Below, piece after piece: positions 10,217-64,000 of a stretch of DNA of 64,000 bases. The notes under the pieces were generated by a model. That model made no database searches and was not told where the DNA came from. It worked only from the letters and a program-made list of their open reading frames with translations. Source of the stretch: Aminiphilus circumscriptus DSM 16581 (lineage in GTDB: Bacteria; Synergistota; Synergistia; Synergistales; Aminiphilaceae). Both the position numbers and the translations under genes were made by a program. Position 1 is the stretch's first letter. Each line of letters opens with the position of its first letter. The stretch covers positions 558,001-622,000 of the forward strand of contig NZ_JAFY01000005.1 of the NCBI RefSeq assembly GCF_000526375.1, given 5' to 3'.

Positions 10217-10321
10217 AGCCTACAGCGCCTCCGCGAAGCACTCGATGAAACTAACTCTCCGCGTGAAGAAACTCCAACAAAACACTTTGCCGAAAACTCT
10301 CCCCGAAGACGAGCACGATCT

Positions 10322-12094
10322 TTAGAACCGCTCCAATCCCCACCCTCTGGGATAGAACCCCGGAAGTTCCACAGGGAGATGCCCCTTCGGGGACGACACT
10401 CCCGAGAGAATGCGGCCGAGGGCTTTCATGGAGGCGGGACGGTCTCCGTAGGTCACCAGATATCCGCACACGTCCTCCACATGGAGCAGATCGTAGGGGG
10501 AACGAACGGAAAGGAGCACGAGCCGTTCCTCTCCAAGGCGACGCAGGAGAGCTTTCCACCCGGCGTTGCGGTGCAGATCGTAGCTCCCCGCAAAGACCGT
10601 TTCCCGCTCCTCCAGAGCCGCACATGCCTCCTCCATGTCCTCCGATGCCGGGTCGAGGGGAAGAAGCATCGGCACGAAGCCCGGACACTCCAGCAGGAGC
10701 GGCGCCAGAGCAGATTCGTATTCTTTAGGCCAGACGAGAGGAATTTTCTCTCCCGCAAGAGGAAGGACCGAGGCCTTCGCGCCTCCGGATACGGCGCATC
10801 CTCCGGAGCCCCTACGGTTCGGATTCCGCACCAGCGTCACGCTTCGCTCGGCGATCTCCTCCGCCACCGCGAGGGATTCCGGCGCCGCCAGCCGGTCCAG
10901 ATCGCCCTCTCTTGGCCAGGGGTCGTCAAGGATGCCCAGAGCTTCCTTCGCCCGAAGGATGCGGGCCACGGCCCCGTCGATACGGGATTCCGGAATCCGT
11001 CCGCTCCGCACCGCCTCGACGAGAAACGCGAAGACTCCATCCTGTTCCTCCGGTTCGTGCCCTTTGTCTGCGCCAAAGATGAGCATGTCCGCTCCGGCGA
11101 GCACCGCAAGAACCGAAGCCTCCTCCATGCCCCAGTGCTGGTCGATGGCCCCCATGCCCATGGAATCCGTCACGAGAAGTCCCTCGAATCCCATTTCCTG
11201 CCGGAGAAGATCCTGGAGGATTGCCGACGAAAGCGTGGCGGGACGGACTGCACCGTCGGGCTCCAGGGCGGGAACTTCCACATGGGCCGTCATGATCGCC
11301 GGCACACCCTGTCCGATCATGGCCCGAAAGGGAGCGAGTTCCACCTTCTCCAGTGCCTCTCTGTCCTTGCGGAGCACTGGCAGTCCCAGGTGGGAATCCG
11401 TGTCCGTGTCCCCATGGCCGGGAAAATGCTTTGCCGTGCAGAGGACACGCTCTCCTGCGTAGGGAACGATCATGGCCGTTCCCATGTCCGCCACGAGGCC
11501 CGGATCGGAACCGAAGGAGCGGATGCCGATGATGGTATTCGCGGGGTTGCTGTTCACGTCCGTCACGGGAGCATAGTTCCAGGTGATGCCCAGGATGCGC
11601 AGCTCCCGGGCCTGCAGACGCGCCTGCGTGGCGGCGAGAGACGTTTCGCCCGTCGCGCCGAGAGCCATGTTCCCCGGAAAGACCGTGACCCCGCTCGTGA
11701 GGCGGGAAATGAGCCCCCCCTCCTGGTCGATGGCGACGAAGAGCGGCAGGACACCGGCGCTTTTCGCGCACGTTTGGATTCCTCGCACGAGCCCGGCCAC
11801 TTGGGACGTGCTCTCCACGTTGCCGGAAACGCTGTAGAGGATGACACCCCCGAGACGTACCGTTTCAAGACGTCGGGCAAGTTCCGGAGACAGGGAGTTC
11901 CCCCGGAAAAAGCCGATCATCATCTGCCCGACCTTTTCCTCCACGGTCATGGAGACGAGGAGATCCTCCACCCTGTTCCCCGCGGCAGAAGCCTTCCGCG
12001 GCAAGGCGAGGGGAAAAAGCGCTCCCGCGAGGAGTGGCAGGAGCAACGCCAGGCGACACAACAACGAGACCTTGCGGAAAGAATGGAACGACAT
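10322..12094 (-). CDS. Glycoside hydrolase family 3 protein (beta-N-acetylhexosaminidase-like)
   Basis: A 590-residue exported enzyme. Residues 1-38 form a signal peptide (hydrophobic LLCRLALLLPLLAGALF, then ASAAG). The GH3 catalytic domain has DQEGG (123-127), the general-acid loop KHFPGHGDT (222-230, typical of NagZ-like members) and nucleophile Asp310 in TDSMGMGA. A C-terminal domain of about 190 residues follows, as in two-domain GH3 enzymes. It likely trims N-acetylglucosaminides from peptidoglycan or similar polymers outside the cytoplasm. Start: ATG 12094, with AGGAGG 10-15 bases upstream; a GTG at 12100 is an equally good alternative. It is divergent from the prepilin peptidase gene. 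Confidence 0.88.
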   Translation of the reverse strand: MSFHSFRKVSLLCRLALLLPLLAGALFPLALPRKASAAGNRVEDLLVSMTVEEKVGQMMIGFFRGNSLSPELARRLETVRLGGVILYSVSGNVESTSQVAGLVRGIQTCAKSAGVLPLFVAIDQEGGLISRLTSGVTVFPGNMALGATGETSLAATQARLQARELRILGITWNYAPVTDVNSNPANTIIGIRSFGSDPGLVADMGTAMIVPYAGERVLCTAKHFPGHGDTDTDSHLGLPVLRKDREALEKVELAPFRAMIGQGVPAIMTAHVEVPALEPDGAVRPATLSSAILQDLLRQEMGFEGLLVTDSMGMGAIDQHWGMEEASVLAVLAGADMLIFGADKGHEPEEQDGVFAFLVEAVRSGRIPESRIDGAVARILRAKEALGILDDPWPREGDLDRLAAPESLAVAEEIAERSVTLVRNPNRRGSGGCAVSGGAKASVLPLAGEKIPLVWPKEYESALAPLLLECPGFVPMLLPLDPASEDMEEACAALEERETVFAGSYDLHRNAGWKALLRRLGEERLVLLSVRSPYDLLHVEDVCGYLVTYGDRPASMKALGRILSGVSSPKGHLPVELPGFYPRGWGLERF

Positions 12095-12244
12095 GGACAC
12101 GAGACACTCCTCCTTGAGCGACCGCGCTGTTTTCCCCAGTCCGGACGACGAAAAAGAAACCAACGGAATTCCCCGGTGAATTTCCGAAAGAATACTGTTA
12201 TAACTATACCATTTACCGCACACGGAAACAGTGGAGGGGTGCCC

Positions 12245-13060
12245 TTGGTGTGGCTGGTCGTTCTTTTTTCTTTCGGCTTTCTGCTCGGAAGCGTTCTTGG
12301 ATCCTTCCTGAACGTGGTCGCCCGCCGTACCGTCGCGGGGGAATCCTGGTGGGGAAAATCCCGCTCCCGTTGCGACACCTGCGGGACTCCTCTCACGTCC
12401 TCAGAACTGATTCCGCTCCTTTCCTGGCTCGTCCAGAGGGGGCGCTGCCGCACCTGCGGCGCGGCCATCCCGAGATCCTATTTCTATGTAGAACTTGTCT
12501 GTGCCCTCATCGGCGCTCTCGTCACGGCACGCTGGGGACAGTTCCTTCCGGAAAGCGTTTCAAACGGAAAGGCCCTTCTCCCTCTCCTGCTCGCCTCGAT
12601 AGCGGCCTATTCCCTCTATCTGAACGCCCTTACGGACCTCTACAGCGGTTACATCTTCGACCTCTTCGCCCTCGCCCCGGGAGCCCTGGGACTCCTGCTC
12701 CGCGTCGGGGGCGGCGAACATGCCCTCATTGACGGCCTGCTCGGCGCCGCGCTCGGATACGGCATCATCGCCTGCATCATCCTTTTGAGTCGTGGAGGCA
12801 TGGGGTGGGGAGACGCACATCTCATGGCAGGACTTGGAGGAATCCTTGGATGGAAAATGACCGGCACCGCACTCTATTTCGGCTTTCTCCTCGGGGGATT
12901 CTGGGCGGTGCTGCTCCTTGTCACGGGGAGGGCAAAGCGCAAGGACGCCATTCCGCTCGGTCCGTTTCTCGCCCTGGGTGGAATCGCAGCGATCCTCTGC
13001 GGCCCGAGCTTCCTCGCCTGGTTCGGCATCGCTTCCGAGTGGCCGTGGAACACCTTGTAA
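12245..13060 (+). CDS. pilD: Type IV prepilin peptidase / N-methyltransferase (A24 family)
   Basis: An integral membrane aspartyl peptidase that cleaves the leader of type IV pilins and type II secretion pseudopilins, and usually N-methylates the new N-terminus. About 271 residues with some eight hydrophobic segments. The two cytosolic zinc pairs are present (Cys43/Cys46 and Cys68/Cys71), as are the catalytic aspartates Asp131 (ALTD) and Asp190 (MGWGD). There is no ATG near the N-terminus; GGAGG at 12233-12237 favours TTG 12245, or GTG 12248. No pilin genes are in the window, so its substrates are encoded elsewhere. Confidence 0.88.
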   Translation: MVWLVVLFSFGFLLGSVLGSFLNVVARRTVAGESWWGKSRSRCDTCGTPLTSSELIPLLSWLVQRGRCRTCGAAIPRSYFYVELVCALIGALVTARWGQFLPESVSNGKALLPLLLASIAAYSLYLNALTDLYSGYIFDLFALAPGALGLLLRVGGGEHALIDGLLGAALGYGIIACIILLSRGGMGWGDAHLMAGLGGILGWKMTGTALYFGFLLGGFWAVLLLVTGRAKRKDAIPLGPFLALGGIAAILCGPSFLAWFGIASEWPWNTL

Positions 13061-13790: not shown

Positions 13791-14971
13791 TCAGGTCAGG
13801 CGACGGACGACGAGAGCCACACCCTGTCCTCCGCCAATGCAGGCGGTGGCAAGTCCGAGTTCCTTGTCCAGAGAACGGAGCGCGTAGAGAAGCGTGGTGA
13901 GAATCTTCGCTCCCGTGGCGCCGATGGGGTGCCCCAAGGCAATGGCACCGCCCCTGACATTGCAGCGGTCCATGTCGAAGGGAAGCGCCCGGTGCACCGC
14001 CAGAACCTGCGCGGCGAAGGCCTCGTTCAGCTCGATGAGTTCCATGTCCTCCAGGGCAAATCCGCTCCGCTGAAGCGCCTTCGGCACCGCGTAGACCGGG
14101 CCGAGCCCCATGTGATCGGGAGCGCACGCCGCCGATGCGTACCCCAGGATTTCCGCCATGGGGCGGAGCCCCTGTGCCGCAGCCCATTCTCCATCGGCCA
14201 CGACAAGAGCGCTTCCGGCGTCGCAGAGAGCCGAGCTGGTTCCAGCCGTGACGCTGCCCCCCTTCTTGAAAATGGGCTCCAGTGCGGCGAGCCTGTCCAG
14301 GGAGGTGTCCGCCCGAGGGATTTCCTCCGTGTCGAAGGCGATCTCTCCCTTTTTTTTGTCCTTCAATCGAACGGGGAAAACCTCGTCCCGGAAGGCCCCG
14401 GTCTCCACGGCCCGCACGGCCAGACGATGACTCCGCAGCGCGAATTCGTCCTGTTCCCTCCTGGAAATACCGTACTCCTCCACAAGAATCTCCGCCGTGG
14501 CGCCCATGAGCATCCCCGCCATCCGGCAGAAAAATCCGTCCGCATGAAGTGCGTCCAAGGTCGGCACGTCACCCATGCGATGCCCCCAGCGGGCTTTCTT
14601 GAGCAGGTAGGGCACATTGGAGGCGCTCTCCATTCCTCCCGCGAGAATCACCGCCGCGTCACCGAGACGCACCCGGTCTGCGGCGAGCATGACCGTACGC
14701 AAACCGGAGCCGCAGCGCTTGTTCACCGTGAACGCCGGAACTGTTTCAGGAAGGCCCGATTCCACCGTGGCAATACGGGCCGGGTTGGAACCGACCCCTG
14801 CCTGCCAGCCGTTGCCGAGGATGACCTCCTCTACGACATCGTCGTCGATCCCCGCCCTCCGCACCGCCTCCCTCAGAGCCAGCGCGCCCAGCCGAGGCGC
14901 ATCCATCTCCGCCAGCGCTCCGCCGAATTTTCCCCCCGCAGTGCGGCATGCGGCAAGGATCACCGCCCGTC

Positions 14972-14975
<4 letters not shown>
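13791..14975 (-). CDS. Acetyl-CoA acetyltransferase (thiolase)
   Basis: Condenses or cleaves acetoacetyl-CoA and longer 3-ketoacyl-CoAs. The 394 residues match the family length. The acyl-accepting cysteine is Cys88 in NKRCGSGL, the catalytic His349 is in GHPIGATGAK and the second cysteine is Cys379 in TACIGGGQG. Its ATG overlaps the TGA of the CoA-transferase beta gene in an ATGA junction, so it is the last gene of a TRAP-CoA-transferase-thiolase operon. This context suggests thiolysis of an imported and CoA-activated keto acid. Confidence 0.93.
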
Positions 14976-15647
<672 letters not shown>

Positions 15648-59077: not shown

Positions 59078-60685
59078 ATGCCCGTTTCTCGCGAAGAACG
59101 CACCATCGTCCGTATCGCGATCGGCTTCGGCCTCCTCCTGGGATGGCTCGACACGCTCATGCGGGGAAGAGACGCCCTGTCCGGTCTCGTTCGAAACGAC
59201 ATCTTTCCCGAAGGCAACGCCCTTCCCGCCTTCGTATTTCTTGCAGCGCACATTTTCTCCTTTCTCGCCGTCGCCGTCGCAGCCCGGTCTCCGGGCTTTC
59301 TTCCGGGAAGACGGTTTCTTCAGTTGTCCGGCGGCATTCTCGCCCTTGCGTTTCCGCTTGCCGCCTCGCTGGGCTCCCTCTTCGGCGAAGGAGCGATTCT
59401 TCTCGCCTCCGGCCTCTCCGGAGCGGGAACGGCTTTCCTCGTAGGAGGATGGGCAGCCGCCTTCTGCACTCTTCCCAGGCAGGAGGCGGCTCTCGCCTAC
59501 GGTCTCGCCGCCTTTTTCGCCGTCCTCTCCGTACTCTACGCCTCCGCGTGGAACGGTGCGGCCATCCTGCTGCCCTTCGCGGGGCCCGTCGTCTCCGCGT
59601 TGCTCCTCTTCACCGCGCCACCGCCAGGAGAAGCGAGCGACACGTTTTCGGAGAAGGTCGATACGGAGACGCTCCGCCCCTGGAGATTCGCCCTGTTTCT
59701 CACAACCGCCTATATCCTCTACGGTCTTGGAAGCGGCATGTTCTCCCTGCTCACCTCCACGCTCTCCCGCCATGCGTACGACAACTATCTCGTGGCCCGG
59801 GGCGTGGCGCCGCTCGTCGCCCTCGGACTTCTTTCCGTGACATCCCGGGAACTTCCCAGCCCTTTCTATCGCTTCTCTCTCTTTCTCGTGGGAGCGAGCT
59901 TTCTTCTGCTCCCCCTGCCCAGACTCTCGGGAATCTCCGCCTACCTGCTGGAGGGCGGGCTTGCCATTTTCGATCTCTACGCATGGCTTCTCCTTATCCG
60001 GTGGGGCCGCTCCGCAGGCCCCCACAAAGACTCGGTCCTCCATTTCGGCCTGTTCCTCATCTCCGGAGCCCTCGCGGTGGGGACACTCAACCCTCTTGCC
60101 GTCGCAAAGACGACATTCTCACTCTTCGCCGAGGGGCATGCCTATCTCGCCCCCTTCCTCACCGCCATCCTTCTGCTTCTCTGCGCACTCTACGTCCCTG
60201 AAGGCCCGGCGAAAAACCGGAACTTCGGCGGCGGCCTCCCTCCGGACAAGGACCAATCCCCTGACACCCCCCTTCCACCTGTTTCGGGAAACCGCTCCGC
60301 GCCGCCGCTCTTCCTCCAGACACATCATGCCGCCGAAGCATTATCCTCCGGACAGACGGAACTTTTTCCCTCCACAGAAGCGCGCCACGGTGAAAAAGAC
60401 GTCTCCCACCCCGAAAAAGAGAACCGTGCGAACAACGAGGTCGATACGGAACTGCAGGAGTTCTCCCTTCGCCTTCGCCTCGAATCTTTAGGCCTGACCC
60501 GCCAGGAAAGCAGTATCGTCCTGCTCCTGCTCCAAGGACTCAAGGATCAGGAGATGTGCACTCGCCTCGTCATCTCCCGGAATACACTCAAGTACCATCT
60601 GCGCAACATCTATCGCAAACTGGCGATTTCCAGCCGAAAGGAGCTTCCAGGACTTTTCGAAGCGGACAGAACAGCCTCTTCCTGA
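59078..60685 (+). CDS. Membrane-embedded LuxR-type transcriptional regulator
   Basis: A 535-residue protein. Residues about 10-390 contain some twelve hydrophobic segments resembling an MFS-type bundle. A polar linker (about 395-465) leads to a C-terminal GerE/LuxR helix-turn-helix (about 470-520: LGLTRQESSIVLLLLQGLKDQEM, then ISRNTLKYHLRNIYRKL). Such MFS-LuxR fusions act as membrane sensors that bind DNA directly, but ligands are unknown. GGAGG precedes ATG 59078. Downstream lies an HTH-only relative and then pspA. Confidence 0.87.
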   Translation: MPVSREERTIVRIAIGFGLLLGWLDTLMRGRDALSGLVRNDIFPEGNALPAFVFLAAHIFSFLAVAVAARSPGFLPGRRFLQLSGGILALAFPLAASLGSLFGEGAILLASGLSGAGTAFLVGGWAAAFCTLPRQEAALAYGLAAFFAVLSVLYASAWNGAAILLPFAGPVVSALLLFTAPPPGEASDTFSEKVDTETLRPWRFALFLTTAYILYGLGSGMFSLLTSTLSRHAYDNYLVARGVAPLVALGLLSVTSRELPSPFYRFSLFLVGASFLLLPLPRLSGISAYLLEGGLAIFDLYAWLLLIRWGRSAGPHKDSVLHFGLFLISGALAVGTLNPLAVAKTTFSLFAEGHAYLAPFLTAILLLLCALYVPEGPAKNRNFGGGLPPDKDQSPDTPLPPVSGNRSAPPLFLQTHHAAEALSSGQTELFPSTEARHGEKDVSHPEKENRANNEVDTELQEFSLRLRLESLGLTRQESSIVLLLLQGLKDQEMCTRLVISRNTLKYHLRNIYRKLAISSRKELPGLFEADRTASS

Positions 60686-61054
60686 TTTCTCGGGAAGGTC
60701 TTTGTCTCACCCCATACCCCCTCCCCGAAACGTTCTCTCGGAATCTCCACGAGCATATCGCTCCGGGTCACTCCCCCTTTTTAAGTCGAACGAAAACATT
60801 CCAGCGCAATGAGTGCAAGCCCCTTTCCCTCCGATGAGGGTGGGGGAAACCACCCTTGTTTCTCCACGAAATCGGCGGGAAATCCTACCCGCACTCTTCC
60901 CCGAGGGGTGATGGACAGGCGGAGAGACTTCCTCTACTTTCGAAAGCGGATTCATAGAGTACAGACAGAAGTGATTTCCTGTTTTTTCTATAATGTATCA
61001 TCTATTCACATAAACATCCGTCTTCGAAAATTCCCTATCGGGAGGGAGCGTTCC
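60686..61054. other. Intergenic region between the two LuxR-type genes
   Basis: About 370 bp. It contains a small hairpin with GGGTGG (60838-60843) and CCACCC (60850-60855) followed by TTGTTT, a likely terminator of the membrane regulator gene, and a TATAAT hexamer at 60989-60994 without a clear -35, 61 bp before the next start. No gene seen. Confidence 0.5.
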
Positions 61055-61363
61055 GTGAGCGCAAAAACGCATCTTCCAGAGCACCCGGATGGCGAACTTC
61101 GGGAAAGGCGCGGTAGAAACCCGACTCGAGCGGCGCTTTTACTGCGATTACAACTCGATCCTTTTTCTCTCACAAAAAAGGAGGCGGGCATCGTCCTGCT
61201 CCTTCTCGAGGACCGGAGCAACGAGGAAATAGCCGATACCGAGGCCATCACCCGGAACACGTTGAAAACCCATCTGCGTCACATCTACCGCAAACTGCAT
61301 GTCACCGGAGGAGACCGGACATCCCGGATCACGGAAATCGCCACCAGGCTGGGACTTCGGTAG
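61055..61363 (+). CDS. HTH-only LuxR-type protein
   Basis: A 102-residue protein made almost entirely of a GerE helix-turn-helix (about 40-90: FSLTKKEAGIVLLLLEDRSNEEI, ITRNTLKTHLRHIYRKL). This core is strikingly similar to the C-terminus of the membrane regulator just upstream, so it looks like a partial duplication that lost the sensor. It could compete for DNA sites, form mixed dimers or act as an unregulated activator. GTG 61055 has GGGAGGGAG nine bases upstream and the gene has its own -10 element. Confidence 0.78.
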   Translation: MSAKTHLPEHPDGELRERRGRNPTRAALLLRLQLDPFSLTKKEAGIVLLLLEDRSNEEIADTEAITRNTLKTHLRHIYRKLHVTGGDRTSRITEIATRLGLR

Positions 61364-61489
61364 GCACACTCCCAACAAGGCACTCCGGACATGACGCCCC
61401 GGAAGCCGGAGAAGGAAAAGGGAACTATCTGTTCGGGCGGAAAGCATCAAATCAGGCGCCCCGAAAACGTGCACGGAGGAGGTGCGGCA

Positions 61490-62161
61490 ATGAGCATTTT
61501 CGGCAAAATGACGGACATTTTCAAAGCCAACGTGAATGACATGCTTGACCGCATGGAGGATCCGGAAAAGATGGTCAAGCAGATGATCGTGGAGATGGAA
61601 GAAGGGCTCACCAAAGCCACCTCTTCCCTGGCAAAGGCCATGGCAAACGAACAGAGCCTCCGCAAACAGCACGCGGCAGCGAGCGAACAGGCACGCCAGT
61701 GGGAAGAGAAAGCCGGCATGGCGATGAAGGCCGGTAACGCCGATCTGGCCCGTCAGGCGCTGGAGAAGAAACTGTCCTTCGACGGGCAGGCGAAACAGTA
61801 TGAGACCATGACCGCTCAGGCTTCCGCCACCACCGCACAGCTCCGCTCCCAGCTCGATGCGTTGAAAATGAAACTCGACGAGGCACGGATGAAACAATCC
61901 ACTCTCGTGGCGAGATCTCAGGCCGCGAAGGCGCAGAAGGAATTCTCCACCGCCATTGGGACCGCCACGGGAAGCGGAGCCTTTGCCAAATTCGAGAAAA
62001 TGGAACGCAAAATCGAGAGTATGGAGGCGGAAGCCCAGGCGTTCTCCGAAATGGGAGGCACCCTTCCTCAGGATGATCCCTTCGCAAAACTGGAAAAAGA
62101 CCAGCAGCTCGAAGCGGAGATGGCGAAGCTCATGGAAAAGATGGGACAAGGAGGGGTCTGA
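61490..62161 (+). CDS. pspA: PspA/IM30 family protein
   Basis: A 223-residue membrane-remodelling protein of the ESCRT-III-like Psp family, acting at the inner face of the cytoplasmic membrane under envelope stress. The N-terminal amphipathic helix (MSIFGKMTDIFKANVNDML) is followed by EDPEKMVKQMIVEMEEGL, a long coiled coil (about 30-165) and a C-terminal FEKMERKIESMEAEAQA helix. ATG 61490 follows GGAGGAGG. The next gene starts three bases after the stop, so the two are co-translated. Confidence 0.93.
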   Translation: MSIFGKMTDIFKANVNDMLDRMEDPEKMVKQMIVEMEEGLTKATSSLAKAMANEQSLRKQHAAASEQARQWEEKAGMAMKAGNADLARQALEKKLSFDGQAKQYETMTAQASATTAQLRSQLDALKMKLDEARMKQSTLVARSQAAKAQKEFSTAIGTATGSGAFAKFEKMERKIESMEAEAQAFSEMGGTLPQDDPFAKLEKDQQLEAEMAKLMEKMGQGGV

Positions 62162-62163
62162 TC

Positions 62164-62601
62164 ATGCGCAAGTTCGCCCTGCTCAAGGACGGAAGCAACG
62201 AGGCACTCCTGGCGAAGACGAAGAACACCGTGACGGCGCTTCTCGGTGAACTCTTCGACCCGGAGGATCTGACCAGCGTGGAGGATCTCCACTCCTTTCC
62301 CTTCGGCAGCGCCACCATCCAGATCCAAGTTCTCCCCTGGCATGCCGAGGATGTACTCGTCCGTGTCTTCTCCTATCTCGTGGAAAACGTGGATCCGTCG
62401 AAGGAGGGCCTCTGCGAGAAACTTCTCCGGCTGAATGCCACGGTACCCCTTGGGGCATTCAGCCTCGTCTTCGACGGCACGATCATGTTCTCCTGCTCGC
62501 TGGCGGGGGCCAATCTCGACAAAAACGAACTGCTCGGCGCGCTCCAGACCGTCGCCGCCTACGCGGACCAGTACGACGACATTCTGAAGGCGCTTTTCTG
62601 A
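62164..62601 (+). CDS. YbjN/CesT-like small protein
   Basis: A 145-residue soluble alpha/beta protein. Its pattern (ATIQIQVLPWHAEDVLVRVFSYLVENV, then LLRLNATVPLGAFSLVFDGTIMFSCSL, and a final helix) resembles YbjN-type proteins with a type III secretion chaperone-like fold. Assignment is by overall pattern and moderate. It directly follows pspA (two bases between stop and start) and is likely a functional partner. Confidence 0.65.
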   Translation: MRKFALLKDGSNEALLAKTKNTVTALLGELFDPEDLTSVEDLHSFPFGSATIQIQVLPWHAEDVLVRVFSYLVENVDPSKEGLCEKLLRLNATVPLGAFSLVFDGTIMFSCSLAGANLDKNELLGALQTVAAYADQYDDILKALF

Positions 62602-62750
62602 CGGCCCCCGAATCGAGCGCAAAACAAGGCGGCCCGGAGATTCGCCGGAGGAGCGGAGCGGTTCGGAAAAAATCCCGGACGAAGGAGTGGAAACGCGGCT
62701 CGCCGGAAAGTGCCGCCATTCGAGAAAAGGACCGGAGAGGAGAGATGTCC

Positions 62751-63536
62751 ATGAGCCCGCTTTCTCTTGGAATCGGAGCGGTTCTCGCTCTGGGAGGCGC
62801 CTATCTCGCCTTCATCCAGAAAAAAAAGAGCGAGGGCGTCGTCACGGAACTGAAATTTCTGAAGGCCACACCTCTCGCGGAACTCCACGCCGCGTGGAAA
62901 GCCATCACCGAGCAGGGGTTTTCGGGAAACTACCGGGAGTTCGTCGAGACCAACGGAAAAGCCGCAACGGAGGGAGAACTCCGCTCCCCCCACGGAAATA
63001 TCCCCTGCGCCTATTTTGTCGCCACCGTGGAACGCCAGTTCGAGCGCGAGGAGACGACCAGGGACGAAAAAGGGAACGTCCAAAGGCGCAGGGTACGCTC
63101 CTCCGAGAACGTCTCCTCTCAGAAAAGCGCCTCTCCGCTCTATCTGGAATCCGCAGGAATCCGTATTCCCCTCGACCTCGACGGAGCCTCCCTGGACCTG
63201 AAGGATGGAAGTGATCGTTTTGAGCCCTACGAAAGCAACCGCACCTATTCCTTTTTCAACGCAGCCTCCATTCAGACGGGAACAAAAACGCTGGGCTTCC
63301 GTTATTCGGAGAAGATCATCCCTTTGGGGCACCCGCTCTACGTCGTGGGAGAAGCAAAGGATTCCTCGGGAGAATTGCGGATCGGAAGCCCTTCGGAAAA
63401 GGGGAAACCCTTCATCGTGTCGGTGAAATCCGAGGATGAGGTGATCAAGAGCAGAGAAAGCGGCGCCAGGACGCAATTCTACCTGGGGATAGCCCTTATC
63501 GTCGCCGGGATCGCCGTGGCGCTCCTCGTGAAATGA
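62751..63536 (+). CDS. GIDE-domain membrane protein (bacterial relative of mitochondrial E3 ligase MULAN)
   Basis: A 261-residue protein with an N-terminal membrane helix (about 3-22, LSLGIGAVLALGGAYLAFI) and a C-terminal one (about 240-260, FYLGIALIVAGIAVALLVK). The domain between has features of the GIDE module: GNYREFVETNGKA, then CAYFVATVERQFERE, and late YSEKIIPLGHPLYVVGEA. No RING finger is present, as in other bacterial members, so it is not itself a ubiquitin ligase. ATG 62751 is eight bases from AGGAG; ATG 62745 is also possible. It follows pspA and the YbjN-like gene on the same strand. Confidence 0.72.
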   Translation: MSPLSLGIGAVLALGGAYLAFIQKKKSEGVVTELKFLKATPLAELHAAWKAITEQGFSGNYREFVETNGKAATEGELRSPHGNIPCAYFVATVERQFEREETTRDEKGNVQRRRVRSSENVSSQKSASPLYLESAGIRIPLDLDGASLDLKDGSDRFEPYESNRTYSFFNAASIQTGTKTLGFRYSEKIIPLGHPLYVVGEAKDSSGELRIGSPSEKGKPFIVSVKSEDEVIKSRESGARTQFYLGIALIVAGIAVALLVK

Positions 63537-63574
63537 CGCATCCCCGATGTTCCTTTCGGAAAGGAGGTATCCCC

Positions 63575-64000
63575 ATGCATCGGCAACGGACTCTCGCTCT
63601 TCTCTGCGCGCTCCTCTGCCTGATCGCCGTTCCCGCACTGGCCACACCCAGGAATGCCCTCGCACCCTGGCCCGAGGACGCGATCTTCGCCGTGGTGGTC
63701 CTGGAAAATGTGAAGGACATGGCAACCGAACTCGCTCCGTCGGTGGAAACCATGTTCCCGGAAGGGGCGCTCGTCGCGGAATGGCTCCGGAGCGTTCCCG
63801 TCAAATCCGTCGCGGTCTCCTTCGGCTACAAAGACTGGGTCTTCCGTCTCCAGGGAGCGCTTTCCTTCGGCCCGGAAAAACGCACGATCCTCGATCGCAT
63901 CGCCGGTGGCACGGCGGAACCGGGCGATCTCGACGCCCTTCTCGACAATCCCGCTGAAGGCGCTTTCGACTTCGTTCTCCACGAGAACGCCACGTATCTG
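63575..64000 (+). CDS. Exported protein of unknown function (3' end off window)
   Basis: The first 142 residues are present. A signal peptide (residues 1-23, LALLCALLCLIAVPALA) is followed by APWPEDAIFAVVVLENVKDM and a mixed alpha/beta sequence (SVPVKSVAVSFGYKDWVFRL). It resembles the start of periplasmic DUF3352-like proteins, but this is weak. AAAGGAGG precedes ATG 63575 by seven bases. Probably co-transcribed with the GIDE-domain gene 38 bp upstream. Confidence 0.75.
   Translation, partial: MHRQRTLALLCALLCLIAVPALATPRNALAPWPEDAIFAVVVLENVKDMATELAPSVETMFPEGALVAEWLRSVPVKSVAVSFGYKDWVFRLQGALSFGPEKRTILDRIAGGTAEPGDLDALLDNPAEGAFDFVLHENATYL

Follow-up and report, generated by a model that had tools for sequence, protein, structure and literature searches.

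A LuxR-associated pspA-ybjN-GIDE gene unit in Synergistota as a candidate variant of the Psp membrane-maintenance system

Introduction

PspA is very widespread, and its partners vary by lineage. Here we analyze a pspA locus of Aminiphilus circumscriptus DSM 16581 (Synergistota) that lies in a 64,000-nucleotide stretch of DNA, hereafter the window (C5:558001-622000 in a genome of 3.22 Mb, 7 contigs and 99.9% completeness). In this locus pspA is followed by genes for a YbjN-like protein and a membrane protein with a GIDE (BAM) domain, and preceded by genes for two LuxR-type regulators.

As in the E. coli pspFABC system, PspA would be the effector. The window genome differs in having LuxR-type regulators at the locus, no match to the PspB or PspC families anywhere in the assembly, and no PspF above the curated cut-off; its only relative is a sub-threshold protein of NtrC type, encoded elsewhere (220.9 bits, where the cut-off is 443.6). 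A preliminary description of this DNA had proposed that these three classical partners are absent; for PspB and PspC this holds across the whole genome, and for PspF no protein passes the cut-off. The B. subtilis-type operon, pspA-ydjGHI, joins pspA to zinc-ribbon and SPFH genes. It resembles the window locus in combining PspA with a membrane adaptor, and several other Synergistota PspA loci resemble it in turn. The window locus, in contrast, has no SPFH or zinc-ribbon partner (none of SPFH type among the genes scanned around it), and those other Synergistota loci lack the palindrome described below.

A further likeness is found in the CesT/Tir-PspA operons (YjfI-YjfJ and BacA-BacB, PMC11237479; BacA of P. 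aeruginosa, PMC10948618), where a gene for a small chaperone of CesT/YbjN fold lies beside a pspA-family gene without PspBC, an independent precedent for the pairing seen here. This CesT/YbjN-PspA dyad was described by Ravi et al. in 2024 (PMC11237479), and an unpublished BacA-BacB interaction is cited in PMC10948618. The other partners in those operons are spermidine synthase, DUF350, band-7/flotillin or an AAA ATPase (PMC11237479), whereas at the window locus they are GIDE, leucine-rich repeat (LRR), DUF2207, SH3 and LprI proteins and the LuxR pair. The terms GIDE, LuxR, YbjN and Synergist do not occur in the accessible main text of PMC11237479.

Two components have relatives in other settings. 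In mitochondrial MAPL/MULAN/GIDE a BAM/GIDE domain is placed between two transmembrane helices, as it is here, and the ancestral role of this domain has been named as an open question (PMC4457424). The only studied relatives that we found of the larger regulator, a LuxR protein with 10-12 transmembrane segments, are DadR, HcdR and CadR of Eggerthella, which respond to small molecules (PMC9734109). According to the accessible part of that paper, these Coriobacteriia proteins share its domain architecture and adjacency to their targets; the targets there are metabolic enzymes, and no association with pspA is mentioned.

Results and Discussion

The genes pspA, ybjN and GIDE form a conserved unit. 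In the window, pspA (61490-62161, + strand) encodes a PspA/IM30-family protein of 223 residues (PF04012 PspA_IM30, 2.5e-51). It is followed by a gene for a 145-residue YbjN/CesT-like (TY-Chap1) chaperone-fold protein (62164-62601, +; PF22551, 1.4e-15) and by a gene for a 263-residue GIDE/BAM-domain membrane protein with one transmembrane helix at each end (62745-63536, +; PF12483, 4.3e-36). Profile searches for the three families were carried out in 188 Synergistota genomes. PspA was present in 27 genomes and GIDE in 15, and the YbjN relative occurred in precisely these 15 genomes, always adjoining GIDE. The phylum holds 17 GIDE loci, and the order pspA-ybjN-GIDE was found in all 15 that could be judged; the other two are cut by contig ends, leaving the last 18 residues of YbjN in one (G018) and a partial YbjN in the other (G026). 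Co-occurrence and adjacency of this triad span at least five genera and two families. The high-scoring type of Synergistota PspA is the type with triad context, and lower-scoring PspA proteins are found elsewhere, in zinc-ribbon/SPFH (B. subtilis-like) or GYF-like contexts that were assigned by eye and not by Pfam. Frequent separation of the genes in relatives, named beforehand in the preliminary description as the outcome that should tell against a common system, was not seen. Two genomes, G103 and G024, were found to carry the triad in two copies. A GIDE profile scan of genome contigs outside Synergistota, weakened by probe peptides biased toward Synergistota, returned only three loci with no PspA in the fetched flanks; all three genomes have PspA somewhere.

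The unit extends beyond the triad. In family f5 the order is a divergent rubrerythrin gene, the gene for the large membrane regulator (MFS-LuxR, for its likeness to the MFS transporters), F7, one or two copies of F2, pspA, ybjN, GIDE, LRR, a gene for a LuxR protein consisting of the helix-turn-helix (HTH) domain only (the HTH twin), the exported protein ExpP, DUF2207, SH3 and LprI. The HTH twin is present in most f5 relatives, downstream of LRR and inside the operon; in f1, the family of the window genome, its place is between MFS-LuxR and pspA, and LRR comes after ExpP. Because the same members are kept in an altered order, these comparisons argue for a common function more strongly than plain synteny would. 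In the window itself, re-reading found all six genes reported earlier, at the positions given and co-directional as claimed, and family models confirmed their names. The extent assigned to the locus had to be revised, as the six genes open a longer operon, which the window end cuts off. It runs on for about 12 kb past position 64000 with LRR, DUF2207, SH3 and LprI genes, the full order after GIDE being exported protein, LRR protein, small exported protein, DUF2207, SH3 and LprI.

The PspA protein, encoded by a single-copy gene in this genome, matches PF04012 over its full length (174.8 bits, residues 2-217) and belongs to the PspA/IM30 (ESCRT-III-like) family; its best PDB matches are Vipp1/PspA/sll0617 structures, with E values down to 1.9e-43. 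The YbjN-like gene starts 2 bp past the pspA stop codon, which gives the locus a CesT/Tir-PspA dyad, and its product matches TY-Chap1 (1.4e-15), YbjN (9.5e-8), CesT (0.0029) and, in the PDB, 2plg (Tll0839 protein; E=0.004). The helices of the GIDE protein occupy residues 5-25 and 241-263, the protein finishing with the second. A family scan found no RING domain in it, which sets it apart from the mitochondrial GIDE/MUL1 E3 ligases and is the reason that no ligase activity is expected; the mitochondrial ligase, to which attention had been drawn earlier, was a misleading guide to this bacterial protein. By the positive-inside rule its topology is also likely opposite to that of MAPL. All three proteins are under strong purifying selection. 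In comparison with the nearest relative, UBA5560 (G017), a metagenome assembly about 96% identical in DNA to the window, the ratio of nonsynonymous to synonymous substitution rates (dN/dS) falls between 0.06 and 0.075 for PspA, YbjN and GIDE (0.075 for PspA, 0.061 for YbjN), and is 0.17 for ExpP and 0.27 for MFS-LuxR.

Upstream of the triad, the MFS-LuxR gene (59078-60685, +) encodes 535 residues and is a candidate membrane sensor and activator. It has a GerE domain (PF00196, E=1e-9) at residues 473-523 and, in a plain hydropathy (Kyte-Doolittle) scan, about 10 hydrophobic segments between residues 10 and 376, an arrangement that agrees with the DadR-type architecture of 10-12 N-terminal transmembrane segments and a C-terminal LuxR HTH. 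The HTH twin (61055-61363, +; GerE, 3.9e-10) has 102 residues and a GTG start. A TATAAT at 60989-60994 (+) is a possible -10 element before it, weak and without a good -35 hexamer; it was noted by direct reading and is not listed by a promoter scan. The recognition helices of the two proteins are alike (NTLKxHxRxIYRK), and for this reason both could use the same site. Of the 12 genomes that could be assessed, 11 (G000, G017, G024, G025, G028, G039-G043 and G103) have an MFS-LuxR homologue upstream of the triad and on its strand.

A candidate for such a site lies between the two regulator genes. The preliminary description had suggested a search for a shared motif, and alignment of intergenic regions revealed an 18-bp dyad, GGGTGGGGGAAACCACCC, at 60838-60855 (unstranded), which we then searched for as GGGTGG-N6-CCACCC; the invariant stem is therefore a product of the search design, and the spacer is not. 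The window holds one copy in 64 kb (shuffle expectation 0.00). The palindrome is located upstream of the triad operon in 12 of the 12 triad genomes whose contigs extend that far; the nine loci that were fetched for the other Synergistota PspA types all lack it. It is the sole genomic copy in G039, G041, G042 and G043. In G037, where the operon is split, both pieces carry it, and in G036, which has no triad, a copy lies where an MFS-LuxR gene probably starts, with SH3 and LRR relatives adjoining. A second dyad class, GGGTGA-N6-YCACCC, lies beside the palindrome in most f5 loci. We also observed a copy with a GAAATC spacer between two exported-protein genes of G026 (L102:5231-5248), possibly a further regulon member.

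We propose that the locus encodes a Synergistota version of the Psp (PspA/ESCRT-III) membrane-maintenance system, with a pspA-ybjN-GIDE core under LuxR control through the palindrome, and we place the probability of this reading at roughly 0.55. PspA would polymerize on the inner membrane as the effector, and the YbjN/CesT-like protein, by analogy with the CesT/Tir-PspA dyads (PMC11237479) and BacA (PMC10948618), may be a co-translated soluble chaperone or adaptor that holds or loads it. The two-helix GIDE protein could serve as a membrane dock, in the role that PspB/PspC or SPFH proteins play elsewhere among Psp systems. Its first helix is followed by a conserved QKKK, which under the positive-inside rule points to a probably cytoplasmic BAM domain, placed beside PspA. 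The exported LRR, DUF2207, SH3, LprI and ExpP-family proteins would extend the response to the periplasm and the outer envelope. On this proposal the 10-12-transmembrane LuxR protein, with the HTH twin where present, would switch the operon through GGGTGG-N6-CCACCC, perhaps upon envelope stress. The LuxR pair may in this way stand in for PspF, as the preliminary description suggested. A fuller version, in which the membrane LuxR sensor, its HTH twin, a single palindrome, and PspA with a CesT-like chaperone and a GIDE/BAM dock make up a self-contained alternative Psp circuit, is tentative, and we hold it at somewhat short of even odds.

Several observations weigh against the proposal. In the twelfth assessable genome, G037, the piece with pspA, ybjN, GIDE and LRR has no MFS-LuxR gene beside it; that gene lies on another contig with the twin, F7, F2 and DUF2207. 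The twin reads as frameshifted in UBA5560 and may thus be dispensable, or the frameshift may be an error, as UBA5560 is a metagenome assembly. The downstream operon of the window genome is partly disrupted by insertion sequences. Finally, the spacer of the palindrome is rich in G-A-A-A on one strand only, the coding strand of the operon, in nearly all copies, and about half of the copies are followed by terminator-like T-runs, which is mostly the case for the f5 copies before F7.

Because of the one-sided spacer and the T-runs, the palindrome could instead be an RNA hairpin, an intrinsic terminator or leader attenuator between regulator gene and operon, with the LuxR proteins binding elsewhere. 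Predicted RNA hairpins are strong in three of four cases (z -2.4 to -3.3), the window copy reaching -1.0. A T-run is missing, however, from about half of the copies, among them the two of G037 and the one before pspA in G024:C42; the same stem sequence recurs across families, whereas a terminator needs pairing alone; the second dyad class has no A-rich spacer; and a terminator scan of the window does not list the palindrome. The first three of these points lead us to favor a DNA operator and to regard the hairpin as a somewhat unlikely alternative.

A second alternative accepts the PspA-YbjN-GIDE core and assigns to the 10-12-transmembrane LuxR protein a DadR-like role, sensing a specific small molecule and activating an envelope-remodelling operon with no general function in envelope stress. 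The studied proteins of this architecture answer metabolites and not envelope stress, DadR, HcdR and CadR activating neighbouring genes in response to catechols (PMC9734109), and MFS-LuxR homologues or their HTH domains are present also in triad-free genomes. The neighbours here, in contrast, are PspA and exported envelope proteins, not metabolic enzymes, and we consider this explanation rather unlikely. That the co-directional genes are mere neighbours without common function, as the insertions in the window genome and the apparent frameshift in G017 might suggest, is very improbable and was rejected, being contradicted by complete co-occurrence and adjacency that survive rearrangement across genera and families.

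The claim that this is an undescribed system does not stand for the CesT/YbjN-PspA dyad (PMC11237479). It stands for the GIDE partner, the LuxR pair and the palindrome to the extent, weak as evidence, that none of the open-access papers searched describes the palindrome or an association of PspA with GIDE or with a 10-12-transmembrane LuxR protein. Searches for PspA with YbjN or GIDE returned nothing relevant beyond BacA, and a term search of the paper defining the 10-12-transmembrane LuxR family (PMC9734109) brought up neither a palindrome nor an inverted repeat. With the fixed pspA-ybjN-GIDE core, prokaryotic BAM/GIDE proteins gain a function that can be tested, and the palindrome is a concrete candidate site on DNA for a LuxR regulator that spans the membrane. 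If the alternative Psp circuit is real, it would provide the first functional context for prokaryotic GIDE domains, and that context would be membrane stress, as in mitochondria.

The remaining features concern the exported proteins and the downstream region. The ExpP gene begins with an ATG at 63575, preceded by AAAGGAGG, and its N-terminal part, which includes a signal peptide, reaches the window end (63575-64000, +); it is complete at L002:6575-8254, in DNA fetched beyond the window end (L002 coordinates equal window coordinates minus 57000). Full-length homologues with about 29% identity are present in f5 operons. The family is large and exported, without a known family model, and because it spans 100 of the 188 genomes (e.g. 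G000:C2:1253636-1255291) only the operon copy is specific. In Foldseek the AlphaFold model of ExpP (pLDDT 74.5) matched TP0453, a treponemal lipoprotein, with a probability of 1.00 and a TM-score of only about 0.2/0.4, a similarity of fold that is a weak lead and not a result. When the ExpP and F7 profiles were searched against PDB sequences, neither had a relative there.

F7 and F2 (L041:5021-9339) are conserved proteins with signal-peptide-like N termini and no match to known families. The structure model of F2 is all-helical, with no convincing structural match. F7 is absent from the window genome; genus g29 (family f6) also has F7, with up to three copies, there without the triad. P186, encoded in the window, and F28, encoded in relatives, belong to different families. 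The LRR gene of UBA5560 is shorter by about 1 kb (positions for this gene and the frameshifted twin together, L077:8150-8660 and 12443-12847). In the window genome, where transposases were identified by eye, the DUF2207 gene (L002:13226-16551) is split by a transposase gene (13877-15073), and the two pieces correspond to residues 6-201 and 200-650 in an intact relative. A 555-bp exact duplication (L002:9531-10085 and 12236-12790), either real or an assembly artefact, flanks another transposase gene (10281-12107).

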